Below, piece after piece: positions 8,537 to 30,611 of a stretch of 64,000 nt of DNA. The stretch comes from Jiangella endophytica. Its GTDB lineage: Bacteria; Actinomycetota; Actinomycetes; Jiangellales; Jiangellaceae. The position numbers were made by a program, and so were the translations under genes. Under the pieces are notes generated by a model. That model made no database searches. It saw only the letters and a program-made list of their open reading frames with translations, and had not been told where the DNA came from. The stretch lies in the NCBI RefSeq assembly GCF_003427025.1, contig NZ_QVAI01000011.1:62001-126000 (forward strand). Direction: 5' to 3'. Position 1 is the first letter of the stretch. Each line of letters opens with the position of its first letter.

Positions 8537-8571
8537 CGTCACCTGGCGGCGAGGCGGGCAAGGGTCCGGGC

Positions 8572-9548: not shown

Positions 9549-10780
9549 CAGGTCTGCTCCGCCTTCCGCCGCCGCCAGACCACGGCCCACCGCAGCAGCG
9601 CGGCGACCACCAGGGCCTCACCGGCCAGGAACAGCACCGCCCACAGCGGGCCCCAGAAGCCGGCCAGGGTGAGATACCAGTACCGCACCGCGAGCACCAG
9701 GGCCGTCCCGAGGATGCCGACCGCGACCACCAGGTACGCCCCGTAGACGACCCGCAGCCGGGCCGGGTACTCCCCCGCTCCGCCGCGCACCGCCGCACCG
9801 GCGAACCGGAACGACTCCGACTGCAGGTGAAGGGTCGACGTCGCGTGCTCGAGCATGTGGTAGCCGTCGAGCTTGAGGACGGGGATCAGGTTGGCGATCG
9901 TGCTGACGGCCCCGAGCAGCAGCAGCCCGCCGGCCAGCCCGTGCCACCAGCCCGACGACGGGCCCCACCACCACAGCGCGGCGAACGGCAGCAACGCCAG
10001 CAGGTTGACGTACACGCCGGCGAACGACGTCATGACGCGCTGGGAGCGGCGCGGGAACGTGACGACGTCGTCGACCTTGCAGTAGGGCGCGATCAGCGGG
10101 AACCGCCACATCAGGCCGATCTCGGTGGGCACGCCGCCGTAGCGGTGGCACGCGACGCCGTGGCCGAACTCGTGCGCGCAGATCACCAGCCAGGTGACGA
10201 CGGCGGCGGCGACGGTGACCGTCCAGTCGCCGGTGAACGCCGCGTAGAGCTCACCCCACGACAGCAGCGAGGCGGCGACGACGGCGAAGCCGGCGAGGGT
10301 GAGCGGCGCCGCGGCCAGCGGATGCAGCAGCCGGCTGAACCACCGCGCCGCCGACGGGACCAGTGCGGCGGCGCCGCGCACCGGCAGCCGCCACAGCAGC
10401 GGCGACCGGCCCTCCGTGCGCCGGGCGACGGCGGCACGCTCGCGGACCTCGGCCAGCCGGGTGTCGTCGGCGGGCTCCATGAGGCCGCGACCGGCGAGCA
10501 GACCGAGCAGCTGCTGCCAGTGCGCGACGGCGAGCCGGCGGCCGAACGCGTCGGCATAGTCCTCGCCGATCTCGGCCAGGGTGCGGTGGCCGTCGAGACG
10601 GCTCATCAGGAACGCCTCGCGCGCGCCGACCCGGACGTACGCGCCGGTGGCACGGTCGCCGACGATGTGCACGTCGGCGCTGCCCTGCGCCAGCGCGGGG
10701 CCGACCCGGACGTCGTCGCGCAGGCGAGGGCGGGCCTGGCGCAGCCAGCCCGCGGCCGGGTCGCTCTCGACGGTGGTCAT
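9548..10780 (-). CDS. RiPP-associated M50-type membrane zinc metalloprotease
   Basis: A 410-residue protein in two parts. Residues 1-105 look like a PqqD-type winged-helix leader-recognition domain (AFLMSRLDGHRTLAEIGEDYADAFG). Residues 150-410 are a multi-pass membrane metalloprotease with the zinc motif HEFGH (203-207) and a second site NLIPVLKLDGY that supplies the third ligand. This matches the YydH/peptide zinc metalloprotease type found in peptide-natural-product clusters. It probably cuts the leader from modified precursor, or acts at export. Its start overlaps the stop of the elimination-domain gene by ATGA. Confidence 0.85.
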   Translation of the reverse strand: MTTVESDPAAGWLRQARPRLRDDVRVGPALAQGSADVHIVGDRATGAYVRVGAREAFLMSRLDGHRTLAEIGEDYADAFGRRLAVAHWQQLLGLLAGRGLMEPADDTRLAEVRERAAVARRTEGRSPLLWRLPVRGAAALVPSAARWFSRLLHPLAAAPLTLAGFAVVAASLLSWGELYAAFTGDWTVTVAAAVVTWLVICAHEFGHGVACHRYGGVPTEIGLMWRFPLIAPYCKVDDVVTFPRRSQRVMTSFAGVYVNLLALLPFAALWWWGPSSGWWHGLAGGLLLLGAVSTIANLIPVLKLDGYHMLEHATSTLHLQSESFRFAGAAVRGGAGEYPARLRVVYGAYLVVAVGILGTALVLAVRYWYLTLAGFWGPLWAVLFLAGEALVVAALLRWAVVWRRRKAEQT

Positions 10781-11802
10781 GCCGGCACCTGGTCGCGGTC
10801 GGGTGCCAGAGCCCGCTCGATCAGGTAGGACAGGTAGATCTCGTCGAGGATCGCCACGCCCAGCCGGTTGTTGGTCATGTGCACGTACGAGCTGAGCAGC
10901 ACGGTCGCGAGCGCGTCGGGGTCGTCGATCGGCGCCCGCCGTTCCAGCCGCTGCGACGGGAACACCAGCTCGCCGCGCCCGGCCGCGTCGGTCACACGGG
11001 CGTGCAGCTCACGGCAGTGGGTCAGCCAGGTCCGCTCGATGCCGGACAGCGCGGCGTCGTCCTCGGCGCCGGCGATGGCCCGGATGCGGCCGATCCGCTC
11101 GGTGAGGGTCGTCCGGGTCAGCTCGAAGCTCTTGTCGAACGAGCCGTGGTAGTCGTCCGACGGCTCCTGGTACGACGACTCCCAGAAGCCGCGGTAGCGC
11201 TGGAAGAACGTCCGGACCCGGTCGTCGTCGCGCAGGAACGTGTACGCCGTCATCAGCGACAGCTGGGTGGCCAGGCCGAGCAGCACCGGGCGGACGTGCG
11301 TGTTCGACGTCGCCAGCAGCGTCGCCACCAGGTCGCTGGACTGCTCGAAGTGCCACTCGGCGATCTCGATGCCGGCGGGGCCGCCGTAGCGGTCGTACTC
11401 GCGCTCGTACGGCAGCTCGGCGACGCTGTTGTTCGGCCGGAACGGCATCGCGCCGTCGCCGTACTCCGCGTCCCAACGCTCCTGCCCGTACTCGGCGAGG
11501 TACATCTTCTTGTAGAGGTCGCCGAGGCCGTCGATGTCGGTGTCGTAGAGCGCGGGGCGCCGGGCGAGGAACGCCTGCAGCGCGTCCGTCGCCCGGCGGC
11601 GGACGGTCTCCTCCAGCTCCGGGCGGGCGGGACGGAACCGCACCCGGACGTGCGGGCCCTCCATCCAGTACTTGATGAAGAACCAGCCGTCGATCAGCTC
11701 CTCGCGGCGCAGCTCCTCGACCAGCGGCCGCACCGCCTCGGCGATGACCGGGTTGGCGTCGCTGGCGTAGAAGACGTGCAGTGCGATCCAGTCACCGGAC
11801 AC
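10777..11802 (-). CDS. Thiopeptide-type LanB C-terminal (elimination) domain protein
   Basis: A 341-residue stand-alone SpaB_C-like protein. Typical landmarks are the N-terminal WFFIKYWMEGPHVRVRFR strand pair, EYDRYGGPAGIEIAEWHFEQSSDL in the middle, and the C-terminal HMTNNRLGV block. In split dehydratases this protein removes glutamate from glutamylated Ser/Thr to give dehydroalanine/dehydrobutyrine; a relative performs the thiopeptide [4+2] cyclisation. Only one such protein is present, beside a full LanB gene, so elimination is the more likely job. The start is GTG, overlapping the LanB gene by 11 bases. Confidence 0.85.
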   Translation of the reverse strand: MSGDWIALHVFYASDANPVIAEAVRPLVEELRREELIDGWFFIKYWMEGPHVRVRFRPARPELEETVRRRATDALQAFLARRPALYDTDIDGLGDLYKKMYLAEYGQERWDAEYGDGAMPFRPNNSVAELPYEREYDRYGGPAGIEIAEWHFEQSSDLVATLLATSNTHVRPVLLGLATQLSLMTAYTFLRDDDRVRTFFQRYRGFWESSYQEPSDDYHGSFDKSFELTRTTLTERIGRIRAIAGAEDDAALSGIERTWLTHCRELHARVTDAAGRGELVFPSQRLERRAPIDDPDALATVLLSSYVHMTNNRLGVAILDEIYLSYLIERALAPDRDQVPA

Positions 11803-14599
11803 GGGTGCTCCCTTCGTCGTAGCGTTCCGGCTGGTCGTAGAGCTCGACCAGGAACTCGCTCACGTACCGGCGGCCGTCCGGATCGGCCAGCCACAGCTCG
11901 TCGGTGCCGGGCAGCGCCTCGGTGAGCACGATCCGCGCCGACGCGCCCTGGGCGAGCTGGTCGAGCAGCTGCAGCGAGAGCCAGCTGTCGAAGTCGACGG
12001 GCAGCGGTTTGCGGCCCGCCTTCCGGCCGCCGCCTCCGTCGTCGCCGGACCCGGTCTCGGTGTCGACGGCGCTCCGGACGCCGGCCGCGTCGGTCTGCGC
12101 GAACAGCCGCCGCGGCAAGCCGTGCTCGCGCCGCCAGCGCCGCACGCGCAGCAGGTGTTCGGCGTCGGTGTGCGCAGGGTCGCGGACGGGGAACGCGGCG
12201 ACGTCGAGCTTCCACATCCGCCGTTGCAGCACGAGGTCGCCGAGCACCAGGCGCGGGTAGCAGGTGATCCCCGTCTCCGGCACCGGGTCGCCGGTGCCCG
12301 CCCAGAGGTCGATCTGCGCCATCCCGCTGGGCGAGAAGCACAGCAGCACCTGCTGGACCTCCGGCAGCGCCATCGGCATGAGGAAGCCGAGGTAGACGGG
12401 GACGACCTCACGGCCGAGCCGGGCGGACACCAGCCGGACGCGGTCGGTGGCCTCGTCGTGCACCAGGGACAGCTCCTCCAGCCGGATCTGCTCCGACGGC
12501 GGCCGGGTGCTGGCGTCGCCCGGGCAGACGATCTCGTAGTCGGTGACGACCGGGTGGACGTTGAGGTTGGTGGTCTCGTAGCCGCCGCGCAGTTCGGCCA
12601 GCACCGCGTCGCCGGCGGCGTAGGACCGCAGCGTCCGCCGGATCAGCCCGGTCGCGTCCGCGCCGCCGGCGTCGAGGCTGTGCGCGAACCGCGAGAACAT
12701 CAGCGTCATGCCGGCGTAGGCCTGGTTGAGCACCAGCCGGCCCGGCTCCTCGCCGGCCCCGGCGGCCAGCTGCAGGAAGAACGACCACGGCTGGCGCAGC
12801 CGCGCGGCGTCGGGCAGGTGCCGGCGGACGGCGTCGGCGAAGTCCGGGCCGAGCCGCAGCTCCTCCGTCTCCGCCGACGACGCCGCCATCACCTCGCGCA
12901 GGTGCGCCGACGCCGCAGCCCGGGCGTCGTCGAGCGCCTCGAGGTCGGCCAGCTTGAACCAGTTCTCCTGCCGGACCAGCGCGTTGTCGTCGTCGAACGA
13001 GCGCCGCCGCATCGAGCGCTGCAGGTACGGCCCGAAGAAGTCGCGCTGGAACTCGTGGCAGAACCGCACGACGTCGTCGCAGCGGCCGCCGGCGCCGTAG
13101 CGGGCCCGGAAGAAGCCGGTGGCGGTCAGCCGCCTGGACAGGTTGAGGTCGAACGCCGGCAGCACGTCGGCGAGCGCGGCGAGGTCGGGGCGGAACCCGT
13201 CGTCCCACGCGCTGCGCGCCGCCGCCAGACCGTCGCTGCCGACGGTGGTGTCCTCGTAGACCAGGGTCCGCGGCACCAGCGACTCAGGCGCGCCGACGAC
13301 GTCGAAGGCGGCCCGCACGTGCCCGCGCACCCCGGCCAGCACCCGGGCCCGTTCGCGGGCGGGCGTCGCCGGGTAGCGGCCGACCAGCTCGCCGGCCGCC
13401 GCCAGTTCCGCGGCCACGGCGCCCAGCACCGGGTGCGCGTGCCCGGCGAGTGCCGCGGTGAACACCGCCGCCGGGTCGGCCGCCCGCAGGTCGACCTGCA
13501 GCTCCGGAGCGAGCAGGAACCCCAGCCGCAGCAGGTGCCCGGCCAGTTGGTCCGCCTCGGCCCGGCCGGCGACGTCGTGGCCCTGCGCCAGCGCGTCGAC
13601 CAGCTCGCGCAGCACCAGCCGCTGGTCGCGGGTGAGCTCGGCCACCCGCGCCAGGGCCGGTCCGCTGGGCAGCAGGAACAGGTCCTCGTGCACGTTGTCG
13701 ATGGCGACGACGGCGTCCGGATCGGCGCTCGTGGCGGTGCGGCGGCGCACGTAGCGGACGGAGTCGCCGTCGAGGCTCGCGCCCGGCGCCAGCGTGACCC
13801 GCACGCCGTCGCGCAGCTCCGGCACCGCGAGGATCACCGCCGCCAGCCGGGACAGGACGGCGACGTTCAGCCGCGCGGACGGGAGCTGGGACAGCGACGA
13901 CGGCTCCGGCAGCGGATCCGCGCCGTCGAACCGCCCCAGGCCGACCGCCGTCAGCGTGCTGAACGGGCTGGTCTTCAGCGCCGCGCGGTAGAGCAGCTCG
14001 AGCAGCGTCCGCTCGATCTGCCGGGCGGTCTTGTCCAGCTTGCGTGCCGGATCGAGGTAGCGGTCCATGGTCCGCTCCAGCACCTCGGACTGCAGCAGGA
14101 CGGCGCTGCGCAGGTCGTCGTCGGCGAGCAGCCGGCGAGCACGGCCGCGGGCGGCGGCGAGGTCGTCGGCCAGGACGGCGGCGCCCCGGTCCAGCTCGGC
14201 GGCGACGGCGCCGACGGCGTCCCGCCAGCGCTGCAGTGTCTCCCGGCCGGACGCGGTGAGGCCCGGCGCGGCCCGGTCCAGGGTCGCGGGACGCGGCCGG
14301 CGGGCGTTGAACACGTCGCGGCGCAGGTTGATCAACGCGATCCGGTGCGCCGCGCCGTCCGGTGCGGCCGCGACCGCCGCTTCCAGGACGGCGCGCAGTT
14401 CCTCGCCGGCGGCGTCGCGGGCGGCCTCCAGGTCGAGGACGCGGTCGGCCCAGGCGGCTGCGGCCGGCGTGCGCAGCTCGGCGACGGCGGCGGCGGGCTG
14501 GCCCGCGACGCGGAGCAGGAAGCCGTCACCGAAGCGCCAGCCGGCCCGTCCCGTGGCCGGGGCGGCGTGGGCGGGTGCGTGGTCGACGAGGTCGGTCAT
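11792..14599 (-). CDS. Lantibiotic-dehydratase-like (LanB, glutamylation) protein
   Basis: A 935-residue protein of the lantibiotic dehydratase N-terminal family. It would use glutamyl-tRNA to activate Ser/Thr of the precursor core. Family features are ALKTSPFSTLTAVGLGRF near residues 210-227, NLNVHPVVTDYEIVCPGD near 640, and SEQIRLEELSLVHDEATDRVRLVS. Unlike class I LanB it lacks the C-terminal elimination domain, which is the separate next gene; this split arrangement is known from thiopeptide and goadsporin pathways. The ATG at 14599 overlaps the dehydrogenase stop (ATGA). The open frame runs much farther upstream, but that part is a shadow of the dehydrogenase gene. Confidence 0.9.
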   Translation of the reverse strand: MTDLVDHAPAHAAPATGRAGWRFGDGFLLRVAGQPAAAVAELRTPAAAAWADRVLDLEAARDAAGEELRAVLEAAVAAAPDGAAHRIALINLRRDVFNARRPRPATLDRAAPGLTASGRETLQRWRDAVGAVAAELDRGAAVLADDLAAARGRARRLLADDDLRSAVLLQSEVLERTMDRYLDPARKLDKTARQIERTLLELLYRAALKTSPFSTLTAVGLGRFDGADPLPEPSSLSQLPSARLNVAVLSRLAAVILAVPELRDGVRVTLAPGASLDGDSVRYVRRRTATSADPDAVVAIDNVHEDLFLLPSGPALARVAELTRDQRLVLRELVDALAQGHDVAGRAEADQLAGHLLRLGFLLAPELQVDLRAADPAAVFTAALAGHAHPVLGAVAAELAAAGELVGRYPATPARERARVLAGVRGHVRAAFDVVGAPESLVPRTLVYEDTTVGSDGLAAARSAWDDGFRPDLAALADVLPAFDLNLSRRLTATGFFRARYGAGGRCDDVVRFCHEFQRDFFGPYLQRSMRRRSFDDDNALVRQENWFKLADLEALDDARAAASAHLREVMAASSAETEELRLGPDFADAVRRHLPDAARLRQPWSFFLQLAAGAGEEPGRLVLNQAYAGMTLMFSRFAHSLDAGGADATGLIRRTLRSYAAGDAVLAELRGGYETTNLNVHPVVTDYEIVCPGDASTRPPSEQIRLEELSLVHDEATDRVRLVSARLGREVVPVYLGFLMPMALPEVQQVLLCFSPSGMAQIDLWAGTGDPVPETGITCYPRLVLGDLVLQRRMWKLDVAAFPVRDPAHTDAEHLLRVRRWRREHGLPRRLFAQTDAAGVRSAVDTETGSGDDGGGGRKAGRKPLPVDFDSWLSLQLLDQLAQGASARIVLTEALPGTDELWLADPDGRRYVSEFLVELYDQPERYDEGSTRVR

Positions 14600-16152
14600 C
14601 GTGGCGTCCCCTCCTGGTGCGGTGCGCGCGGCGGCCGGCGCAGCGCGTGGTCGTAGCCGGGGCGCCCGGCGCGTTCGTGCCCGAGAAGGACGAAGAGCAT
14701 GCTGCGCTCGTCGGTCTCCTCGATGCCGAGCAGTTCGTCGGCGGCGAGGTTGTCGATGCCCAGCACCGCGCCGACGCCGAGACCGCGTGCCGTCGCCGCG
14801 AGGTATGCCGCCTGCGCCGCCTGGCCGACCTCGATGGACAGCATCCGGTAGCCGCGCGCGCCGTAGGCGTCCACCAGCGCCGGCAGCCGCCCGGTGAACA
14901 CGAGGACCGCGGCCACCTCGCGCAGGTTGTAGTTGGTCAGCGCGTAGTACCGCTGCAGCGCGCCGACGTCGAGCGGCGCCCCGGCGACCAGCCGGTGCCG
15001 CTCGTAGGCGTAGGCGCGCGGTTCCAGCCCGTCGACGGCGTTCGCGAGCACCCACTGCCGGATCCACGCCGGCCGCGGCGACGGCGCCACATCGGTGCCG
15101 GTGAGCGCGGCGTCGTCGACGGCGGCCAGGACCCGGCCGAGATCGGCGGTGGTCAGCGCCGGGTGGGCGGCGAACTCGCCGAAGCTGGAGCGCCGGCGCA
15201 GCAGGCTCGTGGTCAGGTCGAGATCGCCGGGCCGCGCTTGCGGCGCGGGCAGCTCGACGACGTCGCCGGTCACCGGCTCGAGTGCGACGACGGCGTCCGG
15301 CCGCGGCTCGTCGCCCACCAGCGCGGCGGCGTGCACGCGTTCGACCAGGTCGAACGTCCGCGCGCGCTCGGAGCGCTCCCAGACCGGGTGCCGCTGCACC
15401 GGCGCGGCCGGTGCCACGTCGACGGCCACCTCCCCGGCGGGACCGAGCGGGACGACCGCGAACGGCGCCTCCGTGTGCCCGTCGAGGTCGAGGGCTGCGG
15501 CGACCGCGGCGTCGTCGAACCACAGCACCGGCCGGACGTCGACGCCGGCCGCGGCCAGCACGGACCGCCAGGAGCCCAGCAGCGCGCCGGTGTCCTGCGT
15601 GACGACGTGGTAGCAGAACGAGTTGTACTTGAACGCGTTCTTCCAGAACCGCACGGCCGCCACCAGGTAGAGGCCGGTGGCCGTGCCGGTGGCGCCCCCG
15701 AGCGCGGCCGTCCGGTCGGCCACCGACAGCCGGTCCAGCGCGTGGTGGGCGGTGTCGTAGTGGTAGACGCCGGGCGGCAGCGGCGCCCCCGCACCCGCCA
15801 CGACGTAGCTCTCGACCGGGTACATGCCGCCGCCCGACGCGGTCGGGCGGGACCACACGGCCTGGTGCGCGCGCACCTTGCGGGAGCTGTCCTCGTTCCA
15901 GTTGGGCGTCACCCGCCGGTCGGCCAGGCCGTAGCAGGCCAGCACACTGGCGAGCAGCGCGAGATCGAGGTCCGGGCCGGGCGGTGCGAACGGCTCCGGC
16001 AGCGCCACCTTGACGGTGTCGAGGTACAGCTTGTGCCGCGACGGCTGGTCCGCCCAGTCGACCCGGAAGCCCAGCGGCGGCAGCGGCACCCGCTGCCGCT
16101 CGAACATGCGGCGGGCGTAGTCCAGTGCGACGGCGTCGGTCGTGGTGGTCAC
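14596..16152 (-). CDS. SagB-type azoline dehydrogenase
   Basis: A 518-residue protein of the SagB/McbC family, an FMN-dependent nitroreductase fold that oxidises thiazolines/oxazolines to thiazoles/oxazoles. It is about double the size of minimal SagB. The N-terminal half has SRPTASGGGMYPVESYVV (FMN-site GGxYP motif), and the C-terminal half has a second nitroreductase-like set (LLRRRSSFGEF, YRMLSIEVGQAAQAAYLAATARGLG). The latter segment is the canonical GQAxQNLxLxAxxxGLG-like motif. It lies between the YcaO and LanB genes, as expected for one maturation pathway. The start overlaps no other gene; 13 bases separate it from the YcaO stop. Confidence 0.92.
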   Translation of the reverse strand: MTTTTDAVALDYARRMFERQRVPLPPLGFRVDWADQPSRHKLYLDTVKVALPEPFAPPGPDLDLALLASVLACYGLADRRVTPNWNEDSSRKVRAHQAVWSRPTASGGGMYPVESYVVAGAGAPLPPGVYHYDTAHHALDRLSVADRTAALGGATGTATGLYLVAAVRFWKNAFKYNSFCYHVVTQDTGALLGSWRSVLAAAGVDVRPVLWFDDAAVAAALDLDGHTEAPFAVVPLGPAGEVAVDVAPAAPVQRHPVWERSERARTFDLVERVHAAALVGDEPRPDAVVALEPVTGDVVELPAPQARPGDLDLTTSLLRRRSSFGEFAAHPALTTADLGRVLAAVDDAALTGTDVAPSPRPAWIRQWVLANAVDGLEPRAYAYERHRLVAGAPLDVGALQRYYALTNYNLREVAAVLVFTGRLPALVDAYGARGYRMLSIEVGQAAQAAYLAATARGLGVGAVLGIDNLAADELLGIEETDERSMLFVLLGHERAGRPGYDHALRRPPRAPHQEGTPR

Positions 16153-16165: not shown

Positions 16166-18094
16166 TCACGGGAACGGGTGCGGGACGAGGTGCAGCTGGT
16201 CCGGGCGCAGGGGCCGCGCGACGTGTCCGGCGCGGTAGGGCGCCCAGAGCGTGCGCGGCATCGTCAGCACCCGCTGCCGGTGCCAGCCGAAGTCGATCGG
16301 GATCAGGCCCGGCACGATCGTCGCCACGGTGGACAGCCCCAGGGCCCGCTGCTCGGGCGTCGTCTGGTCGACGACGACGGTGTCCATGCCGCGGTCGGCG
16401 AACATCGCCGTGAGCTCCGCGACGGGGTCGCGCAGGTCGGTGACCGGCGGCCGGCCGGTGGTCCAGTCGGCGTAGACGTCGGCCAGCGGCGTCCGCTCGC
16501 TCTGGCGCAGCCAGTGGTCGGCGTGCGGGGCCATCTGCGGCATCCCGAACAGCAGGGCGTGGTGCTCCAACTCGGTGACGTGCCGGTAGTCGGACACCAT
16601 CAGCTCGGTGTGCTCGATCGACGCCTGGACCCGCTCGTCGAAACCGGTGACGTAGGACGCGACCTCGCAGACGGCGGCGCGGACGGCGTCGGCCGGGTCC
16701 AGCGAGGCGCCGCCGGCGAAGCACAGCGTGCCGAGCCCGCCGTCGCGCCGCACCGCCACCGCGCCGACCGCGGGCACCGCCAGGTCGGTGCGGATGTCGA
16801 AGCAGCGCAGGTCGTAGCCGAGCAGGTCGACGTGCGCCCGCATCTGCTGCACCAGCGGATGGGCGACGGTGTCGAGGTCGATCTCCACCGGCGTCCGCCC
16901 GGTGTACCAGCTGAGGAGGAACGCGTCGCGCTCGATCAGCTCGAGCAGGCCGTGCAGCACGGCCTCGGTGACCGAGCTGCCGGAGGCGCAGCCGTTGGAG
17001 CACTCCTGGACGGTGTTGCGGTGGTCCTCGCGGTGGTCGAGGTAGTAGACGATCTGCTCCGGGACCAGCAGCGCGCGGTCGTCGCGCAGGGACCAGCCCC
17101 ACACCCACGGAATCCGCGGGTTCTGCTCCCACGGCACGTACTTCTCGGTGTGCCGCTCGTAGAACTCCGGCTCGTACAGCCCGCACTGCTCCATCTCGAC
17201 GTAGGGCTCGTCGAGCTCGGTGACCCGGGCGCGACGCGCGACGTCGAGGCGCCGCGGCCGCTGGCCGGCGTCGCGCTCCAGGCCCTCCAGCGCGCCGAGC
17301 AGTTCGCTGCGCTGGTAGCTCTCGGCGTGCCCGCTCCACCACATCTCGTGCAGGCCGTACTTGCTGCGCACCTCGAAGTGGCCGCTGACCGGCGCCGTCG
17401 CCGTCGCGTGGTAAGCGCGCAGGGCCGGCCCGCCGAGCATCCCGCAGACCGGGTTGGCCAGCGCGTCCATGGGCAGGCCGAGGTCCTCCGGCGCCAGCGA
17501 CCGGGTGCCGCCGGGCCTGGCCGGCGGGGTCGGCGCCGGCGTGACGCGGGCGCCCTCGGCGGTGTCCGGCGCCGGCGCCGAGCACTGGCAGCCGGAGTCG
17601 CGCAGCAGCCCGTACCGGCGTACCGCCGTCGTCGTGAGGTCGAGCTCCCAGACCGGGTGACCCGGGCCGCTCACCGAAGCCGACGCCGCGGCGACGAGCA
17701 TCGCGGCGACGGTGACGGCGTGCGCGGGCAGCGGCGCGGCCGGGGTGACGAGCACGCCGTGCGGCTCGTCGAGGATGCGCCGCTCGGTGACCGGGCGGCA
17801 GACGGTCCAGCGCCGGTCGAGGCACTGGGGGCACGGGCCGGGGGCGCCGGGCGTCGCGGCGACGACGAGCGTGTGCGCGTAGCGGCGCACCGCCACCCGC
17901 GCAGCGCCGTCGCCGACCCGCGCCGTGTGCCGCTGTTCCGCTCCGGGTATCCCCAGGACGGCGACGTCGATGGCCGCGACCCGGGCGGCGGCGCCGGGTG
18001 GCAGGGCGCCGGCCAGCTGCCGGGCCAGCGCCGCGGCGGCCGGCTCGGCGTCACCCGGCGGTGCGGCCTGACGGTTCTCCTGCATGGTGGTCAC
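16166..18094 (-). CDS. YcaO cyclodehydratase with N-terminal E1-like zinc segment
   Basis: A 642-residue protein. Residues 1-200 hold a cysteine tetrad C88-x2-C91 and C169-x-C171 like the structural zinc site of E1/ThiF-like partner proteins. Residues 230-642 are a YcaO domain that uses ATP to turn Cys (and Ser/Thr) into azolines. The domain carries LLGALEGLERDAG, SGSSVTEAVLHGLLELIERDA (ATP/Mg site Glu residues), and ends exactly in PHPFP, the proline-rich C-terminus important in azole-forming YcaO enzymes. The GTG start at 18094 is preceded by AGGAAGG; an ATG three codons later is possible. It lies just downstream of precursor gene 1 and its hairpin. Confidence 0.93.
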   Translation of the reverse strand: MTTMQENRQAAPPGDAEPAAAALARQLAGALPPGAAARVAAIDVAVLGIPGAEQRHTARVGDGAARVAVRRYAHTLVVAATPGAPGPCPQCLDRRWTVCRPVTERRILDEPHGVLVTPAAPLPAHAVTVAAMLVAAASASVSGPGHPVWELDLTTTAVRRYGLLRDSGCQCSAPAPDTAEGARVTPAPTPPARPGGTRSLAPEDLGLPMDALANPVCGMLGGPALRAYHATATAPVSGHFEVRSKYGLHEMWWSGHAESYQRSELLGALEGLERDAGQRPRRLDVARRARVTELDEPYVEMEQCGLYEPEFYERHTEKYVPWEQNPRIPWVWGWSLRDDRALLVPEQIVYYLDHREDHRNTVQECSNGCASGSSVTEAVLHGLLELIERDAFLLSWYTGRTPVEIDLDTVAHPLVQQMRAHVDLLGYDLRCFDIRTDLAVPAVGAVAVRRDGGLGTLCFAGGASLDPADAVRAAVCEVASYVTGFDERVQASIEHTELMVSDYRHVTELEHHALLFGMPQMAPHADHWLRQSERTPLADVYADWTTGRPPVTDLRDPVAELTAMFADRGMDTVVVDQTTPEQRALGLSTVATIVPGLIPIDFGWHRQRVLTMPRTLWAPYRAGHVARPLRPDQLHLVPHPFP

Positions 18095-18198: not shown

Positions 18199-18384
18199 TC
18201 AGCCGCAGCTGGACGTGCTGGTGCTCGTCGAGCAGCAGCTCGACGTGCTGCACGAGCTGCAGCTGGAACAGCTGCAGGACGAGCTGGTGGCGGCCATCTC
18301 CAGCGACGGGTCGCTGATCTCGCCGATCTCGAAGGTCACGGCCTCGAGCTCGAGCAGCTCCAGGCCCAGGGTCTCGTTCGACAT
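18199..18384 (-). CDS. RiPP precursor peptide 1, Cys/Ser/Thr-rich core
   Basis: A 61-residue peptide. The leader (residues 1-32) is acidic and hydrophobic, with LGLELLELEAVTFEIGEISD as the likely recognition helix/strand, ending near EMAA. The core (about 33-61) contains only Ser, Thr, Cys and a final Gly, with seven Cys arranged as CSC, SSCSSC, and a CC pair, then an STSTST block. This matches substrates of the neighbouring YcaO and LanB enzymes: Cys to thiazole, Ser/Thr to dehydroamino acids or oxazoles. The start ATG has GAGAGA close upstream, in AAGGAGAGATCC. The exact leader cleavage site is not visible. Confidence 0.88.
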   Translation of the reverse strand: MSNETLGLELLELEAVTFEIGEISDPSLEMAATSSSCSCSSCSSCSTSSCCSTSTSTSSCG

Positions 18385-18427
18385 GGATCTCTCCTTCGCG
18401 GTGGACGCGGACGTACGCTCGGGTGAG

Positions 18428-18460
18428 GTGCTGCGGGCCAGTGCGAGTGGCCCGCAGCAC
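18428..18460 (-). terminator. Hairpin after precursor gene 2 (attenuator-like)
   Basis: A perfect 13-base-pair inverted repeat, GTGCTGCGGGCCA with TGGCCCGCAGCAC, around a 7-base loop. It lies between the precursor 2 stop and the precursor 1 ribosome site. It is the second copy of the hairpin at 18152. It lacks a U tract, so it probably tunes relative transcript amounts or stabilises the upstream precursor mRNA. Confidence 0.62.
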
Positions 18461-18474
18461 CCCGTCTCAGGGCG

Positions 18475-18660
18475 TCAGCCGCAGCTGGACGTGCTGGTGC
18501 TGCACGAGCAGCAGCTCGACGTGCTGCACGAGCTGCAGCTGGAACAGCTGCAGGACGAGCTGGTGGCGGCCAACTCGACCGACGGGTCGGTGAGCTCGTC
18601 GATCTCGAAGGTCACGGCCTCGAGCTCGAGCAGCTCCAGGCCCAGGGTGGCGTTCGACAT
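18475..18660 (-). CDS. RiPP precursor peptide 2, Cys/Ser/Thr-rich core
   Basis: A 61-residue paralogue of precursor 1, about 85-90% identical. The leader keeps LGLELLELEAVTFEI, then DELTDPSVELAA. The core again contains only Ser, Thr, Cys and a terminal Gly, but has eight Cys: the first Thr of the STSTST block is replaced, giving CCSC instead of CCST. The start at 18660 has AAGGAGAGAACC upstream. Both flanks are shared with precursor 1 through the tandem duplication. It is presumably modified by the same enzymes; the two products should differ by one azole. Confidence 0.88.
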   Translation of the reverse strand: MSNATLGLELLELEAVTFEIDELTDPSVELAATSSSCSCSSCSSCSTSSCCSCSTSTSSCG

Positions 18661-18730
18661 GGTTCTCTCCTTCGCGGTTGTCGATGCGGTGGTCGTCACG
18701 TGGACGCGGACCTGGCGTGTGGGCAGCGGA

Positions 18731-18913
18731 TCAGCCGCCGCCGCAGCCCGTGCTGGTGCTCGTCGAGCAGCAGCTCGACGTGCTGCAGGAGGAGCAGCTC
18801 GAGCAGGAGCAGCTCGAGCTGCACCAGCCGGCGGCGTCCTGCCCGACGTCGGTGATGTCCTCGACCTCGAAGGTGGCCGTCTCGAGCACGAGGAGCTCGT
18901 CACGCAGAGCCAT
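18731..18913 (-). CDS. RiPP precursor peptide 3, Cys/Ser/Thr-rich core
   Basis: A 60-residue peptide from the ATG at 18913, eight bases after AAGGGGG; a GTG three codons upstream (18922) is the alternative. The leader has LVLETATFEVEDITDVGQDAAG, clearly related to precursor 4. The core starts around W-C: after Trp it contains only Cys, Ser, Thr and Gly, with eight Cys and a C-terminal GCGGG tail. It shares the central SSCSSCSTSSCC block with all four precursors. The Trp just before the first Cys is a likely mark of the leader/core border in this subtype. Confidence 0.87.
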   Translation of the reverse strand: MALRDELLVLETATFEVEDITDVGQDAAGWCSSSCSCSSCSSCSTSSCCSTSTSTGCGGG

Positions 18914-18947
18914 CTGTGTCACCCCCTTCCCCTGTGTGAGCGGTCCG

Positions 18948-18967
18948 CCGCCCGGGTCCGGGGGCGG
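18948..18967 (-). terminator. GC-rich hairpin between precursor genes 4 and 3
   Basis: A 6-base-pair stem CCGCCC/GGGCGG with an 8-base loop sits between the precursor 4 stop and the precursor 3 ribosome site. It occupies the same relative place as the two strong hairpins downstream but has an unrelated sequence. It has no U tract, and its effect is uncertain. Confidence 0.35.
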
Positions 18968-18982
18968 AGACCGGGGTCCGAG

Positions 18983-19168
18983 TCAGCTCGTGCTGCTGCA
19001 GCTGCAGCTGGAGCAGCCGCAGCAGCTGGACGTGCTGCACGACGAGCAGCTCGACGTGCTGGTGCTGGAGCTGCACCAGCCGGCGGCGTCCTGAGCGACG
19101 TCGGAGATCTCCTCCACCTCGAAGGTGGCGGTCTCCAGGGCGAGCAGTTCGGTGGTGAGTGCGGTCAC
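18983..19168 (-). CDS. RiPP precursor peptide 4, rearranged Cys/Ser/Thr core
   Basis: A 61-residue peptide with a GTG start overlapping the stop of the leader-binding protein gene (GTGA, 19165-19168), so the first precursor is translationally coupled to it. The leader LLALETATFEVEEISDVAQDAAGW matches precursor 3. The 30-residue core after Trp contains only Cys, Ser, Thr and one Gly, with eight Cys. Relative to the others, the STSTSS block lies at the N-terminal side and CSC at the C-terminal side, so the Cys-rich and Thr-rich flanks are exchanged around the shared centre SSCSSCSTSSCC. Confidence 0.87.
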   Translation of the reverse strand: MTALTTELLALETATFEVEEISDVAQDAAGWCSSSTSTSSCSSCSTSSCCGCSSCSCSSTS

Positions 19169-21201
19169 GGCGTCTCCTCCGGTGTGCGAGCGGTGAACAG
19201 CAGAACGCGAGCGACGGTGGTCACGCCGGCGAGGTCCGGCGGCGTGAGGTCGACGGCGGCTGCTCGGTGCCCGGTCGAGGCGAGCGCGGCGAGGACGTCC
19301 TCGGTGCCGACCTCGCGGTGCAGCCGGTCCGCGTCGGTGACGGCGGCGCCGGGAGCGGTGGCGGCGAGGTCGGCCTCGACGCCGTGCGGCACGGCCGGAC
19401 GCTCCAGCGGCGTGCCGCTGACCTGTCGCTCCCCCAGCACCTCGAGCAGCGCGTCGCGGACTGCGTCGCCCCAGGAGGCGCCGGCCCGGGCGACGACGCG
19501 GCCCGCGCCACCGCGGACGTGGACGACGGCGACCGGGACCGCCCCGGCCTCGGCCACGTAGAGGTCGGCCCGGGCGCCGGCGGCGGCCAGCTCGCCCAGC
19601 AGCATCGCGACGTGGCCGCGCCGGTCGGCGTCGGGGTCGGCCGCCGCGAGCGTGGCCGGCACCGGGTGCAGCGTGAGCCCACCCCGGGCCACCGAGGTGA
19701 GGCACAGTGCCCCGGCGGCGTCGAGCAGCGCACGCCATCGGGCCTCGCCGGCGTCCGGCGCGGCGGCGAGGCCGGTGAGCGCCGGCTCGAACACGGCCGC
19801 CGTGCGGTCCCACGGCCCGGCGAGGACGGCCGACCGCTCGATCGCGAGGGCCGCGCCGCCGTCCAGGTCGGCCGCGGCGACCGAGCGGGGGGCGGGTACC
19901 GGGGCGCCGAGCCAGCCGGCCAGCCGCTCGGCGGGCACCGCCTCGGCGCCGGGCGCGGGGTCCGGCAGGTGCCCGGTCCGGCGGTGCAGGTGCAGCGCAT
20001 AGCGAGCGGCGGTCGTCTCCAGCGCGATCAGCCGGGCCTGCAGAGTGGACTGGGCGCCGAAGGCGACGACCGGCTCCGGGTCGACGGCCGGGGCCACGAG
20101 GCCGGCCACCTTGACCGGGATCTGCACCGCGGCGTCGTCGTCGAACCGGCGGGCCAGGCCGACGGTGTCGGCGACGACCGGCTCGAACCGCCGGTACGCC
20201 CGCTCGTCGGCCGGCTGGTCCGCGTCGTCGCCGTCGTCCGCCGCGGCCGGGGCCGCCGGGACCGCCAGCGGTGAGCCCGGGTGCGGCACCAGCCGCTCGC
20301 GGGTGACGGTGAGCCGGTGCGGGTCGACGATCACGACGGCGTCGTCCAGGTCGCTGGGCACCGTGCCGGAGAGCGCCTTGAACACCTCGAAGCCGGCCAG
20401 GCCGACGGCCATCGGCACCGCGGTGCCGGGCAGCGGCGGCCAGGCCGGCGCACCGGCCGGACCGGCGATCGCGGCCTGCCAGAGCGCCGCGGCGCTGTCG
20501 ACGCCGTTGTCGCTCATCCGCAGCGCGGCGGAGTGCAGGTCGGCGCCGCCGGCGTCCTGCCATGGGCCGAGGACGAGCCGCTCGCCCACCCGCAGCAGCG
20601 GCAGGAACGCGACGCCACGGGCCCGGCAGGCCGCGGCCAGCGCGAACAACCGGTGATGCGGCCGGCCGAGGGCGACCAGGCAGAGCGCGTCGGCGCCGTC
20701 GAGATCCGTGTCGGCGACGTCGCCGACGACGCGTACCGAGCCGCCGGCGCTGCCGGCGCCATTGGCCGTCAGCGCGTCGGCCAGCCCGGCCGGGTCGTCA
20801 CCGGTCACGACGATCCGCGCGGCCGCCACCCGGGCGAAGCCGGTGCCGTCGTCGCCGAGGTGGTCCAGCAGCGCGAGCTGGCCGCCGAACCGCGCGACGG
20901 TGCCGGCGTCGTGGCCGGCCAGCGGATCCGGGCCGTCGACGACCACCCCGCGGCCGGCCAGCGTGCCCAGCAGCGACCGCACCGCGTCGGCGTGCGCCGG
21001 CGGCAGCCCGGCGACCAGGTCGGCGAGCGGCGTGCTGCCGTTCAGGTGCGGCAGCAGCGCCGACAGGTACCGGTAGGCGCCCGCGCCGCGGATGAGGAAC
21101 GCGTCGTCGTGCCCGCGCACGTAGACTCCGTCGAGCGTCTCGAGGAACGCGACGTCGCGGCGCATACGGGGCCGGACGAGCTCAGGCGTGTCGGTGGTCA
21201 A
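19165..21201 (-). CDS. Leader-binding ThiF/ocin-like cyclodehydratase partner
   Basis: A protein of 678 residues from a TTG at 21201 preceded by AGGAG at five bases; a GTG two codons earlier overlaps that ribosome site and is less likely. Residues 1-95 form a winged-helix leader-recognition domain (DVAFLETLDGVYVRGHDDAFLIRG...LPHLNGSTPLADLVAGL). The middle is a degenerate Rossmann/ThiF-like region (RIVVTGDDPAGLADAL, ALCLVALGRPHHRLF), without a clear catalytic Cys or ATP site. This is the TOMM leader-binding protein type that delivers precursor to YcaO. It is the gene just upstream of the four precursors. Confidence 0.82.
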   Translation of the reverse strand: MTTDTPELVRPRMRRDVAFLETLDGVYVRGHDDAFLIRGAGAYRYLSALLPHLNGSTPLADLVAGLPPAHADAVRSLLGTLAGRGVVVDGPDPLAGHDAGTVARFGGQLALLDHLGDDGTGFARVAAARIVVTGDDPAGLADALTANGAGSAGGSVRVVGDVADTDLDGADALCLVALGRPHHRLFALAAACRARGVAFLPLLRVGERLVLGPWQDAGGADLHSAALRMSDNGVDSAAALWQAAIAGPAGAPAWPPLPGTAVPMAVGLAGFEVFKALSGTVPSDLDDAVVIVDPHRLTVTRERLVPHPGSPLAVPAAPAAADDGDDADQPADERAYRRFEPVVADTVGLARRFDDDAAVQIPVKVAGLVAPAVDPEPVVAFGAQSTLQARLIALETTAARYALHLHRRTGHLPDPAPGAEAVPAERLAGWLGAPVPAPRSVAAADLDGGAALAIERSAVLAGPWDRTAAVFEPALTGLAAAPDAGEARWRALLDAAGALCLTSVARGGLTLHPVPATLAAADPDADRRGHVAMLLGELAAAGARADLYVAEAGAVPVAVVHVRGGAGRVVARAGASWGDAVRDALLEVLGERQVSGTPLERPAVPHGVEADLAATAPGAAVTDADRLHREVGTEDVLAALASTGHRAAAVDLTPPDLAGVTTVARVLLFTARTPEETP

Positions 21202-21254
21202 GGTCACTCCTGTCGTCTGCGGTCGGCTGGAGCAGGCTGGGAGGGCCGCTCGGG

Positions 21255-22094
21255 TCAGGTGACGTCGCGGCGCCGCGTCAGAACCACCGCGACGGTGGCG
21301 CTGACGGCGATGTAGGCGGCGAGGACGAGGCAGGCGGCCGGCACGCCGAGGTGGTCGACGACGCCCGGAGTGCCGCCGGCGCCTTGAGTGGGCGCGCCGA
21401 GACCGGCGACGAGGGACCCGCTGGCCGAGCTGAGCAGGACCGCCCGGACCGGCTCGAGCGCACCGATCACCGAGGCCAGCCCGGCGACGGCGTTCTCGAG
21501 GCCCAGGGTCCACACCAGGCCCACCGCCAGGGCCACGCTGGTGCCGCGGAACACGACGGCCAGCGCGGCGCCGAGGCTCAGGAACGCGGTCGAGATCAGC
21601 AGTGCGGCGCCGAGCGACGCGAGCAGGTCAGGCACCGGCGGCAGGCCGCCGGACTGCCCCTCGACCGCGGCGATGACCAGCGACGCGAGCACCGACGCGA
21701 CGGCGGCGGCCAGCGCGATCGCCGCGACCGCGAGCACACCGGCGCCGAGCTTGGCCAGCACCACCGTGGACCGGCTCGGCCCCTGCGACAGCCGCGCGCC
21801 CCAGGTCCCCCAGCGGTACTCCGAGCCGGTGATCAGCACGCCGAGGATCAGCATGATCGCGCCGCCGAACAGCGGGTAGCTGCTCACCGACGTGCTGTCG
21901 ACGGCGGACGGCACGAGGACGGCCAGCAGATCGGCACGGTCGCCGGCGCCGTCGGCGGGGTCGAGGGTGCTGTAGACGATGTAGGGCACGCCGAAGGCGA
22001 AGATCAGCACCAGCAGCACCCAGGTGCCCCCGATGACGGCCGGGGCGAGCCGCTTGCGCAGCAGCAGGGTCTCGGCGGCGAAGGCGTCGCTCAT
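21255..22094 (-). CDS. ABC-2 type transporter permease
   Basis: A 279-residue integral membrane protein with about six hydrophobic helices (first GGTWVLLVLIFAFGVPYIVY near 20-39) and the TGSEYRWGTWGARLSQGPSR loop typical of ABC-2 permeases of the NatB/bacitracin-resistance type. The start overlaps the ATPase stop by ATGA, so the two form one exporter. Within the RiPP cluster it is the probable export or self-protection system for the mature peptide. There are 53 bases between its stop and the leader-binding protein start. Confidence 0.88.
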   Translation of the reverse strand: MSDAFAAETLLLRKRLAPAVIGGTWVLLVLIFAFGVPYIVYSTLDPADGAGDRADLLAVLVPSAVDSTSVSSYPLFGGAIMLILGVLITGSEYRWGTWGARLSQGPSRSTVVLAKLGAGVLAVAAIALAAAVASVLASLVIAAVEGQSGGLPPVPDLLASLGAALLISTAFLSLGAALAVVFRGTSVALAVGLVWTLGLENAVAGLASVIGALEPVRAVLLSSASGSLVAGLGAPTQGAGGTPGVVDHLGVPAACLVLAAYIAVSATVAVVLTRRRDVT

Positions 22095-23074
22095 GCGGAC
22101 TCCCCCTCGGCGTCGCGGGTCAGGGCGAAGAACACGTCCTCGAGCGATCGGCGCTCGCGGCGCAGCTCGTGCACGTCGACGCCGGCCTCGACCAGCGCGC
22201 GGACCAGGCGCGGCACGTCCTCGGGCTCGACCGGCAGCTGCCAGCCCGGCCCGCCGCCGCCGTCGTCGTCGTCCACGGGCGTCACCGCATCGGCGCCGGC
22301 GAACTCGGCGAGGACGGCCCGGGCGCGATCGGCGGGCCCGGCGTCGACCCGCAGGACGGTGCCGCCGGCGCGCAGCCGCAGCTCGTCGACCGCGTCCTCG
22401 GCGATGACCCGGCCGCGGTCGAGGACGACGACCCGTTCGCAGACCTGCTGCACCTCGCTGAGCAGGTGCGACGAGAGCAGCACCGTGGTGCCGTCGGAGC
22501 CGAGCCGGCGAACCAGCGCCCGCATGGACGCCACGCCCTCGGGGTCCAGGCCGTTCGTCGGCTCGTCGAGGATGAGCAGCCGCGGGTCGCCCAGCAGCGC
22601 CGCCGCCACGCCGAGCCGCTGGCCCATGCCCAGCGAGTACCCGCTGTAGCGGTCGTCGGCGCGACCGGTGAGCTCGACGACGCCGAGCACCCGATCGGCC
22701 TCGTCGTCCCGCAGCCCGCGGGCCCGGCTGAGCACGCGCAGGTTGGTGCGCCCGGACAGGTGCGGCACGAACGCGGGCCGCTCGATGAGCGCGCCGATCG
22801 AGCGCAGCGCGGCGGGCGCGCCCGGAGGCCGGCCCAGCACGGTGACCGCGCCGTCGTCGGGGCGGACCAGGCCGAGCAGCACCCGCATCAGCGTCGTCTT
22901 CCCCGCGCCGTTCGGGCCGAGCAGCCCGTACACCTCGCCGCCGCCGACCTCCAGATCAACGCCGGCGAGCGCCGTGACGGCGTCGTACGCCTTCGTGACA
23001 CCCCGGACGCGCACGACCGGGACACTGGAGACGGTGCGGTCGGACCGGGCGCCGGCGTCGGCATCGAGGGTCAT
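22091..23074 (-). CDS. ABC transporter ATP-binding protein
   Basis: A 327-residue ATPase with Walker A GPNGAGKTT, Q-loop region GALIERPAF, signature YSLGMGQRLGVAAALL, Walker B RLLILDEPTNGLDPEG and the H-loop SSHLL. A C-terminal ~90-residue domain ends in SLEDVFFALT, as in multidrug/antibiotic ABC-2 systems. I place the start at the ATG 23074, with AGAGG seven bases upstream; the frame is open ten codons farther. It is the first gene of the RiPP operon, so the cluster promoter should lie in the spacer beyond 23074. Confidence 0.93.
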   Translation of the reverse strand: MTLDADAGARSDRTVSSVPVVRVRGVTKAYDAVTALAGVDLEVGGGEVYGLLGPNGAGKTTLMRVLLGLVRPDDGAVTVLGRPPGAPAALRSIGALIERPAFVPHLSGRTNLRVLSRARGLRDDEADRVLGVVELTGRADDRYSGYSLGMGQRLGVAAALLGDPRLLILDEPTNGLDPEGVASMRALVRRLGSDGTTVLLSSHLLSEVQQVCERVVVLDRGRVIAEDAVDELRLRAGGTVLRVDAGPADRARAVLAEFAGADAVTPVDDDDGGGGPGWQLPVEPEDVPRLVRALVEAGVDVHELRRERRSLEDVFFALTRDAEGESA

Positions 23075-26610: not shown

Positions 26611-27597
26611 TCAGAGCCGCAGCGTCCGCAGATACGCGGCGAAGCCCTCCAGGCCGTCGATGTTGCGCGGCCCGCTGATGCCCTCGTTGTAGTCGAGCAC
26701 GTAGAAGCGGTCGGCGACGACGGCCGGCAGCCCGCTGGTGATCGGCGACGTCTTCAGGAAGTCGATCTTCTCCTGGGCCGGCTGGTCGCCGTAGTCGAGG
26801 ATGATGACGACCTCGGGCGCGGCCTGGACGACGGCCTCCCAGCTCACCTGGGTCCAGCGGGCCTCGAGGTCGGCGAAGACGTTGCGGCCGCCGGCGTACT
26901 CGATGATCTGGTTCGGCGGCACCTGGCTGCCCGCGGTGAACGGCTGGTCGGTGCCGGAGTCGTAGAGGAACACCGGCACCGGCCCGCCCTCGGGGGCGTT
27001 CGCTCGCACCGCGTCGACCCGGCCGCGGTACTCGGTGACGAGCTCGGTGGCGCGGTCCTGCACGCCGAAGATCGCGCCGAGCCGCTCGAGGTCGGCGTAG
27101 AGCGCGTCGAACGGCTCGACGCGCTCCGGGAAGCCCGGGTAGTTGAAGCAGGACTCGGTGTGCATGAAGCTCTGGATGCCCAGGCCGTCGAGGATTTCCG
27201 GGGTGATGCCCCGCTGGTCGCTGAAGCCGGAGTTCCAGCCGGCCACGACGAAGTCCGCCTCGGCGTCGACGACCAGCTCGCGGTTGAGCAGGTCGTCGCT
27301 GAGGAACTCGACCGCGGCGTAGTCCGACGCCCACGGCGACTCCTCGACCGGTGGGTTCGCCGGCGGCATGACGTAGCCGTGCACGTGGTCGGCCAGCCCG
27401 AGCGCGAACAGCTTGTCGGCGCTGCCGGCCTCGTAGACGACGGCGCGCTCCGGCGTCGTGTACTCGACCGGCTCACCACAGCGGTCGACGGTCACCGTCC
27501 GGTCGCCGGAGGACGTCTCCACCTCGGCGCCGCACGCGGCGAGGGTCAGGGCGCCGGCGGCGAGCGCGATCAGGGGGCGTCGGTGCGGGGTCGTCAT
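26611..27597 (-). CDS. FecB/BtuF-type ABC substrate-binding lipoprotein, Zur operon
   Basis: A 328-residue lipoprotein. The signal peptide with lipobox LAAC places the anchoring Cys near residue 22. The mature protein is a class III (periplasmic_binding_2) receptor with VVYEAGSADKLFALGLADHVHG, FVVAGWNSGFSDQRGITPE and SYEGI-like YNEGISGPRNIDGLEGFA. This clade is often annotated as a coenzyme F420-0 receptor. Here it ends a zinc-starvation operon, so zinc or a zinc chelate is a better guess. Its ATG overlaps the ATPase stop by ATGA. Confidence 0.85.
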   Translation of the reverse strand: MTTPHRRPLIALAAGALTLAACGAEVETSSGDRTVTVDRCGEPVEYTTPERAVVYEAGSADKLFALGLADHVHGYVMPPANPPVEESPWASDYAAVEFLSDDLLNRELVVDAEADFVVAGWNSGFSDQRGITPEILDGLGIQSFMHTESCFNYPGFPERVEPFDALYADLERLGAIFGVQDRATELVTEYRGRVDAVRANAPEGGPVPVFLYDSGTDQPFTAGSQVPPNQIIEYAGGRNVFADLEARWTQVSWEAVVQAAPEVVIILDYGDQPAQEKIDFLKTSPITSGLPAVVADRFYVLDYNEGISGPRNIDGLEGFAAYLRTLRL

Positions 27598-28385
27598 GTC
27601 GGGGTTCCCTCCGAAGTGGTGGCGGTGACGGTGTAGAGCAGTTGCGGCGCGCCGGTCAGCGGGTGCGGGACGACGGTCGCGGCGACACCGAACACGTCGC
27701 GGACCAGCGCCTCGGTGAGCACTCCGGCCGGGTCGCCCGCGGCGACCAGCCGGCCGCCGTCGAGCACGCCGATGCGGTCGCACACGGCGGCGGCGAGGTT
27801 GAGGTCGTGCAGGACGACGAGCACGGTCAGGCCGGCGCCGCGGAGCATGCCCAGCAGCTCGATCTGGTGCCGGACGTCCAGGTGGTTGGTCGGCTCGTCC
27901 AGCACCAGCACCCGGGGCTCCTGGACCAGTGCCCGCGCGACGAGCACGCGCTGGCGCTCGCCGCCGGAGAGCGAGAGGACGCCACGTCCGGCGAGGTGCA
28001 GCAGGTCCAGCCGACGCATCGCCGTCCGGCACAGCTCCCGCTCGCGGGCGGTGAGCGGCTGGTTGCCGCGCTGATGCGGGGCCCGCCCGAGCGCCACGAC
28101 CTCCTCGACGGTGAAGTCGAGGTCGCTGCCGCCCTGCTGGGTGAGCGCGGCGATGCGGCGGGCGCCGTCGCGGCGGCCCAGCCCGGCGAGGTCGTCGCCG
28201 CCGATCCAGACGGTGCCCCGGGTCGGCCGGAGCGCGCGGTACACGCAGCGCAGCGCCGTCGACTTGCCGCTGCCGTTCGGGCCGATCAGCCCGACGACCG
28301 TGCCGTCGGCGACGTCGAGGCTGAGGTCGCGCACCAGGTCGGCGCCGTCGATGGTGACGGTGAGGCGGTCCAGCCGCAGGTCCAT
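27594..28385 (-). CDS. FecE-type ABC transporter ATPase
   Basis: A 263-residue ATPase with Walker A GPNGSGKST, Q-loop ALTQQGGSDLDF, signature LSLSGGERQRVLVARAL, Walker B RVLVLDEPTNHLD and HDLN as the switch. It belongs to the siderophore/cobalamin class of importers. It lies between permease (1-base gap) and binding protein (ATGA overlap), giving a complete FecBCD-like importer. No second permease gene is present, so the permease should act as a homodimer. Confidence 0.94.
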   Translation of the reverse strand: MDLRLDRLTVTIDGADLVRDLSLDVADGTVVGLIGPNGSGKSTALRCVYRALRPTRGTVWIGGDDLAGLGRRDGARRIAALTQQGGSDLDFTVEEVVALGRAPHQRGNQPLTARERELCRTAMRRLDLLHLAGRGVLSLSGGERQRVLVARALVQEPRVLVLDEPTNHLDVRHQIELLGMLRGAGLTVLVVLHDLNLAAAVCDRIGVLDGGRLVAAGDPAGVLTEALVRDVFGVAATVVPHPLTGAPQLLYTVTATTSEGTPT

Positions 28386-28386
28386 G

Positions 28387-30029: not shown

Positions 30030-30037
30030 CGGCGGGG

Positions 30038-30580: not shown

Positions 30581-30611
30581 GGTGGTGCCTTCCTGTGCGG
30601 AGCTGACGGGG

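Follow-up and report, generated by a model that had tools for sequence, protein, structure and literature searches.

The 64,000-nucleotide window of Jiangella endophytica DNA analysed here (contig C3 of a 7.85 Mb genome) carries four minus-strand open reading frames (ORFs) at 18199-19168, encoding peptide precursors of 60-61 amino acids (aa) with genes for predicted azole- and dehydroamino acid-forming enzymes of the YcaO and LanB families beside them. Each precursor has an acidic leader with the motif LExxTFE[VI], followed by a core of 29-30 residues with seven or eight Cys and otherwise only Ser, Thr and Gly. Core borders are predicted, having been set by composition and not from cleavage sites. 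Three core types can be told apart, designated alpha (two copies in the window), beta and gamma (one copy each). First in the order of transcription is the gamma precursor (18983-19168, 61 aa; core codons 18986-19075), with the core CSSSTSTSSCSSCSTSSCCGCSSCSCSSTS (30 aa, eight Cys). The beta precursor follows (18731-18913, 60 aa from ATG; core codons 18734-18823), with the core CSSSCSCSSCSSCSTSSCCSTSTSTGCGGG (30 aa, eight Cys), and then two alpha precursors of 61 aa each: one at 18475-18660 with the eight-Cys core TSSSCSCSSCSSCSTSSCCSCSTSTSSCG (29 aa; 18478-18564), the other at 18199-18384 with the seven-Cys core TSSSCSCSSCSSCSTSSCCSTSTSTSSCG (29 aa; 18202-18288).

GGAG lies upstream of three of the four start codons, a G-rich stretch lies upstream of the beta start, and the GTG start of the gamma gene overlaps the stop codon of the F-protein gene before it. 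The listed beta ORF opens at GTG 18922; ATG is preferred because homologues, P0003 and P0004 among them, begin MAL. The NCBIfam model TIGR03892, ‘thiazolylpeptide-type bacteriocin’, accepts one of the four precursors, gamma at 27.8 bits (cut-off 25); the alpha precursors score below the cut-off (20.3 bits for the eight-Cys and 20.8 for the seven-Cys form), and the beta precursor has no NCBIfam match up to E 0.1. Pfam gave no match on the four, and a PF19409 label in the homologue listing was not reproduced.

Peptides of such simple composition might be read from DNA by chance or in the wrong frame; simulations and a codon comparison rule this out. Runs of at least 26 Cys/Ser/Thr/Gly with at least six Cys occur in the six frames of the window at the four cores only, and no such run of even 20 residues, whatever its Cys content, arose in 60 third-order Markov simulations of the window (3.84 Mb). 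Codon pairs were compared between same-type orthologues across loci (135 alpha, 120 beta and 91 gamma pairs; the precursors of L043 and L046, labelled alpha by regular expression, were left out for unequal length). In the cores, 5-6% of pairs show residue changes versus 24-29% silent changes; in the last 26 leader codons the figures are 32-36% and 15-17%. The low rate of residue change against a high rate of silent change indicates that these frames code for protein and that selection acts on the core. The precursors are real genes whose peptides have been conserved, more strongly in the core than in the leader; the four Cys/Ser/Thr/Gly cores with seven or eight Cys of the preliminary description are thereby confirmed. 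RiPPs (ribosomally synthesized and post-translationally modified peptides) usually have conserved leaders and variable cores; here the relation is reversed.

The family is large. A profile search gave 231 protein matches among 7965 candidates scored. Of the 120 homologues listed among these 231, 108 finish with 22 or more consecutive Cys/Ser/Thr/Gly/Ala residues, and the median pure Cys/Ser/Thr/Gly end run is 29. The 12 exceptions in that list are P0074, which has no tail, P0119, whose run is 18 long, and ten in which other residues, from one to a few, interrupt or follow the run. Such a family search had been named in the preliminary description as a check; it brought up many homologues with closely similar cores, and the searchable literature gave no characterised product.

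Core types were assigned across loci by regular expressions; L030 and L033 stop short of the precursor stretch and were left out. Alpha, beta and gamma cores occur together in 14 of 27 loci: the window, L024-L029, L031, L032 and L034-L038, with a fourth precursor besides in L026. L060 and L065 carry alpha and beta cores; a single 26-residue core is present in each of six Streptomyces-type loci (L039-L042, L044, L045); L043, L046, L047 and L112 have other Cys/Ser/Thr/Gly/Ala cores; none was found in L105, which spans a smaller part of the L112 cluster. Two groups of loci, one comprising the window and L024-L029, the other seven Micromonospora loci (14 loci, 43 precursors in all), were compared without gaps. 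Between the groups, cores of the same type are 92% identical and their leaders 46%; different types share 68% identity in the core and 19% in the leader. High identity within a type and lower identity across types argue that alpha, beta and gamma are old and have been kept separately. Lineages with all three cores most likely deliver a matched set. One could go further: three cores composed entirely of Cys, Ser, Thr and Gly, separate since before the two actinobacterial groups diverged and served by one enzyme set, might yield three polyazole-polydehydro chains with a joint mode of action, for instance by forming a complex or hitting a common target. That proposal is tentative, with perhaps a modest chance of being right. 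Cores more conserved than their leaders suggest that the target is fixed, or that the three products keep a constant fit to one another.

The surrounding genes, all on the minus strand, supply the predicted enzymes. Upstream of the precursors is the F-protein (19165-21207, start inferred), an ocin-ThiF-like leader-binding partner of the cyclodehydratase; it has no Pfam match and falls below the cut-offs of TIGR03882 (30.5 bits) and TIGR03693 (26.1 bits), and was matched in 22 of 23 related loci. Downstream are the YcaO cyclodehydratase (16166-18085, start inferred; TIGR03604 294.8 bits, cut-off 219.25; TIGR03882 56.6, cut-off 36.9; Pfam YcaO 255 bits) and the SagB-type azoline dehydrogenase (14596-16152; TIGR03605 124.2 bits, cut-off 78.4). 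With the window YcaO and the SagB of L025 as queries, both matched in all 23 other loci compared. A second YcaO gene of this genome lies far from the operon (G000:C5:73447-74490). The split LanB follows: a predicted N-type glutamylation enzyme (LanB-N, 11792-14599; Lant_dehydr_N 116.3 bits) and a predicted C-type glutamate-elimination enzyme (LanB-C, 10777-11802; Lant_dehydr_C 164.7 bits). The preliminary description had placed YcaO, SagB-type and split LanB enzymes beside the precursors, and the profile matches bear it out; azoles and dehydroamino acids are the expected products. Among solved structures, the best match to LanB-N is PDB 6ec7 (E=5.8e-24), which we take to be TbtB; the goadsporin protein 9jhq, presumably GodF, also matches (E=2.7e-8). 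The motif RxxxKTSPFS is present in the window LanB-N and in 27 of 28 aligned rows from 30 loci (L053 differs; L048 and L049 gave no row); a stricter pattern matches eight of 31 scanned sequences. The order F-protein, precursors, YcaO, SagB, LanB-N, LanB-C, M50 protease is whole in 22 of the 25 family loci; contig ends truncate the remaining three (L030, L033, L045).

One rival reading turns on LanB-C. Were it a [4+2] aza-cyclase, with elimination left to another protein, the product would be a thiopeptide with a pyridine macrocycle. Some features weigh against an eliminase: the overall fold is nearest to TbtD/PbtD, the TbtD/PbtD model NF045556 matches LanB-C at 108.5 bits, and NCBIfam names such precursors thiazolylpeptide-type. 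The NF045556 cut-off is 325 bits, however, and the match ends at profile position 273 of 354; the adjacent TbtC-type proteins likewise end at 173-286, whereas the nine proteins above the cut-off reach 350-353. In the LanB-C tree (fragments L061 and L064 and the broken L065 omitted), a branch with support 100/99 parts all nine pyridine synthases and two divergent rows from the window protein, its family and all nine adjacent TbtC-type enzymes. One alignment column has His in the window protein (His308), in 25 of 25 family members and in nine of nine TbtC-type enzymes, and Tyr in nine of nine synthases; judged from structure titles and the alignment, this Tyr is the residue altered in the PbtD Y293F and F293A structures. 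His308 aligns with a His of MibB and NisB, in stretches that are weak alone (1-2 bits), and the available text of PMC4341554 gives NisB H961A as abolishing dehydration. Arg55 of the window protein is replaced in the nine synthases by Asn (six), His (two) or Val (one).

Gene content agrees. Each of the 25 family loci has one LanB-C ORF in the DNA covered, and the same profile, built by iteration over the same locus set, found both enzymes in nine of nine thiopeptide loci (L066 gave no ORF match). The J. endophytica genome has one Lant_dehydr_C and one TbtD-family match, both of them this protein; no other Lant_dehydr_C was found there or in the genomes of four of eight relatives. With His in place of Tyr and no second Lant_dehydr_C in the genome, a thiopeptide is very improbable; no [4+2] pyridine synthase was found for the cluster in its own genome, in the family loci, in the tree or by the catalytic column. 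A Nakamurella metagenome-assembled genome (L048) has a LanB-C of the window's side together with a second protein on the pyridine-synthase side, on a long branch; perhaps this is a thiopeptide locus using an eliminator of the window's type.

The last enzyme is an M50 membrane metalloprotease (9548-10780; Peptidase_M50 35.9 bits). Its HExxH and DG residues (H203, E204, H207, D305, G306) are invariant in 18 of 18 rows aligned (L029, L030, L033, L036, L038, L045, L047 and L060 of the 25 family loci are not among them). The structural model (predicted local distance difference test score, pLDDT, 88.2) opens with three strands followed by helices. The top three Foldseek matches are chains of the lasso-peptide RiPP recognition element (RRE) protein TbiB1 (probability 1.00, E 0.034-0.052); lower matches include 6jx3 and SuiB, RiPP proteins with such domains, among unrelated ones, and none falls below E 0.001. 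In the model the protein has an N-terminal domain resembling an RRE, and it is probably the leader peptidase; fusion of an RRE to a membrane protease would account for the way in which the enzyme is guided to the leader. M50 proteases have been reported for epipeptides and pearlins (in the text available from PMC10885120), and the one described here, with its RRE-like part, is a candidate leader peptidase for the present group.

Taken together, the products of the cluster are probably a few linear peptides, freed of their leaders and rich in thiazoles and dehydroalanines. The data show the genes and their order, their homology, the catalytic residues and the conservation; the steps of the pathway, the degree of modification, any concerted effect of the three cores and any bioactivity are things that we infer. 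By homology, the F-protein would hold the acidic leader; YcaO would convert Cys and some Ser/Thr to azolines, and SagB would oxidise these to azoles; LanB-N would glutamylate Ser/Thr with Glu-tRNA, probably those beside finished azoles, and LanB-C would eliminate glutamate to give dehydroalanine (Dha) or dehydrobutyrine (Dhb); the M50 protease, guided by its RRE-like domain, would cut off the leader; the ATP-binding cassette (ABC) pair would export the product or protect the cell. No pyridine macrocycle would be formed.

Seven or eight Cys and many Ser/Thr per core would also suit a lanthipeptide-like product, in which Cys thiols add to Dha/Dhb to form thioether rings and few azoles are made, and the genome does have two LanC-like matches away from the operon (contigs C45 and C8). 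None lies on contig C3, though, and the constancy of YcaO and SagB across loci argues for azoles; moreover, in the goadsporin system no glutamylation by GodF was observed in the absence of the azole-forming enzymes (in the portion of PMC5303826 available). Thioether rings are thus highly improbable here. The opposite extreme is a chain modified throughout. The preliminary description had supposed that almost every residue could become an azole or dehydroamino acid, giving a nearly continuous chain, and in principle all core residues except Gly are modifiable. As an upper bound this stands; as a prediction it is too strong. Carnazolamide, with eight azoles and eight Dha in a 30-residue core, keeps some Ser/Thr intact (PMC10676384, in part), and goadsporin has six azoles and two Dha in a 19-residue core (PMC5303826, in part). 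Near-complete modification is accordingly quite unlikely, and we prefer linear peptides modified densely at only some of their positions. Calculated monoisotopic masses of the cores as bounded by composition, given in turn for the unmodified peptide, for thiazole at every Cys, and for Dha/Dhb ahead of each thiazole as well, are 2782.841, 2622.631 and 2532.578 for gamma; 2692.809, 2532.599 and 2442.546 for beta; 2695.809, 2535.599 and 2409.525 for the eight-Cys alpha; and 2693.847, 2553.664 and 2445.600 for the seven-Cys alpha. The true cleavage sites may alter these values, since a Cys at the N-terminal end needs its preceding residue to form an azole. Such cores offer a clean substrate for the question of how YcaO and LanB divide Ser, Thr and Cys between them when nearly every position is eligible.

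Further genes flank the operon. The ABC-2 type permease (21255-22094) and the ABC ATPase (22091-23074; predicted export or self-protection) lie upstream on the minus strand; both were assigned by library match. Downstream on the same strand is a small conserved protein of 97 aa (9297-9590), matched in four loci (L024-L027) and having only a below-cut-off Pfam match. In the nine loci listed of 24 sequences compared (ORFs of at least 90 aa), the ABC pair is present in many, other neighbours are common to three Kribbella-like loci or to L026, L029 and L043, and no further widely shared family appears. Beyond these lie a RelA/SpoT-domain protein of 246 aa on the plus strand (7057-7797) and, at 26611-31733, what looks like a metal-uptake or zinc-response group: an ABC ATPase (27594-28385) and a CobW_C protein (30612-31733) which, on visual inspection, are surrounded by a binding-protein-like ORF, a permease-like ORF and small ORFs resembling ribosomal proteins.

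Related LanB-C proteins at E<=1e-40 occur in 18 of 393 genomes of the class searched, counting this genome and the two-YcaO clusters described below. L024 is Haloactinopolyspora alba, also of the Jiangellaceae. The same operon in Ktedonosporobacter rubrisoli of the Chloroflexota (L047) suggests horizontal transfer. L026, recorded as ‘Streptomyces sp. SID13031’, falls together with two Kribbella records in the tree of LanB-C proteins, a possible mislabel or transfer. A Streptomyces plasmid (L121) has the operon, with a reverse-strand hypothetical gene (8355-8683) listed over the precursor and no precursor in its incomplete gene table. L065 is a second Micromonospora tarensis copy in which LanB-N and LanB-C are split over several frames, a decaying copy or an assembly error. 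Sister clusters with two YcaO genes (L112, from genome G004 of the window's genus, L113-L116, L118 and L120) also have F-protein, SagB, LanB-N, LanB-C, a full or partial M50 gene and Cys/Ser/Thr/Gly/Ala-rich cores. L119 has two YcaO genes and L117 one; the precursor filter found no precursor in either, and none resembling those of the window in L048, L049 and L063.

How new is all this? The preliminary description could recall no such class, and open PubMed Central (PMC) full texts (most subscription papers lie outside that scope) yielded no characterised family that combines such a set of cores with these enzymes, nothing on TIGR03892 and nothing linking Kribbella with thiopeptides. The claim of an undescribed class holds to that extent; it is weakened by the NCBIfam thiazolylpeptide-type models, which match part of the family, and by the coryneazolisins, whose near-pure Cys/Ser/Thr cores had already been described (PMC4603692, in part). 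As general background, the cores of nosiheptide, berninamycin and telomestatin are also nearly all Cys/Ser/Thr, though shorter. Thiopeptides such as thiomuracin and GE2270 share the F-protein, fused YcaO, SagB and split LanB, and differ in having a pyridine synthase.

Among linear peptides, goadsporin is made with a YcaO, a dehydrogenase and a split LanB (GodF/GodG) that place azoles and Dha (PMC5303826, in part), and the window has the same arrangement beside its precursors, again with no pyridine synthase. Goadsporin differs in its 19-aa core, acetylation by GodH and the putative processing transporter GodB, as against 29-30 aa cores, F-protein and M50 protease; no GodH-like N-acetyltransferase was seen conserved in the nine loci listed, where no profile search was aimed at it. 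Coryneazolisins, predicted in 2015, likewise pair a split LanB with the lack of a [4+2] enzyme, and their core has ten Cys/Ser/Thr, one Ile and five to seven Cys/Ser/Thr (PMC4603692, available text). The Corynebacterium silvaticum locus L053 is taken for a coryneazolisin locus by its two YcaO matches and the core CSSTTSSSSCISTSSS; its LanB-C is the outermost row of the window protein's clade (99/88), on a long branch that leaves its place unsure, and its precursor exceeds the cut-offs of both thiazolylpeptide NCBIfam models. These loci differ from the window in having two YcaO genes and one shorter core with Ile, rather than a single YcaO gene within the operon (another lies on contig C5) and three core types.

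The dehydrazole carnazolamide shows how dense azole and Dha modification of a 30-residue core can be: of 20 Ser/Thr/Cys, eight end up as azoles and eight Ser as Dha immediately preceding an azole, while Ser8, Thr13 and Ser30 stay unmodified, and no antibacterial or cytotoxic activity was recorded against what was tested (PMC10676384, in part). According to the same partial text, dehydrazoles differ in LanMbC dehydration, a radical S-adenosylmethionine epimerase, an S-methyltransferase, a proteusin sub-clade precursor and a core with Ala and Pro; a DUF4135 LanMbC was not among the conserved operon families of the loci listed, where no profile search was aimed at it. Spongiicolazolicins A and B are linear azole peptides of 29 and 28 residues (PMC8838263, in part), grouped with goadsporin for their dehydroamino acids and azoles (PMC10676384, in part); compared by description only, they differ in their reported pattern of three-residue blocks, in which every azole is followed by an unmodified residue (PMC11583998, in part). 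The short Streptomyces cores might conceivably be identical to that of the spongiicolazolicin precursor. A survey of clusters selected for TfuA-YcaO thioamidation pairs, a criterion that sets them apart, also mentions a fused YcaO-cyclodehydratase with split lanthipeptide dehydratases, likened to goadsporin, as well as precursors annotated as thiazolylpeptide-type bacteriocins (PMC8120280, in part). The best reading is that the chemistry is of a known, goadsporin-like kind, close to goadsporin and the predicted coryneazolisins; the unusual point is the trio of strongly conserved pure Cys/Ser/Thr/Gly cores.
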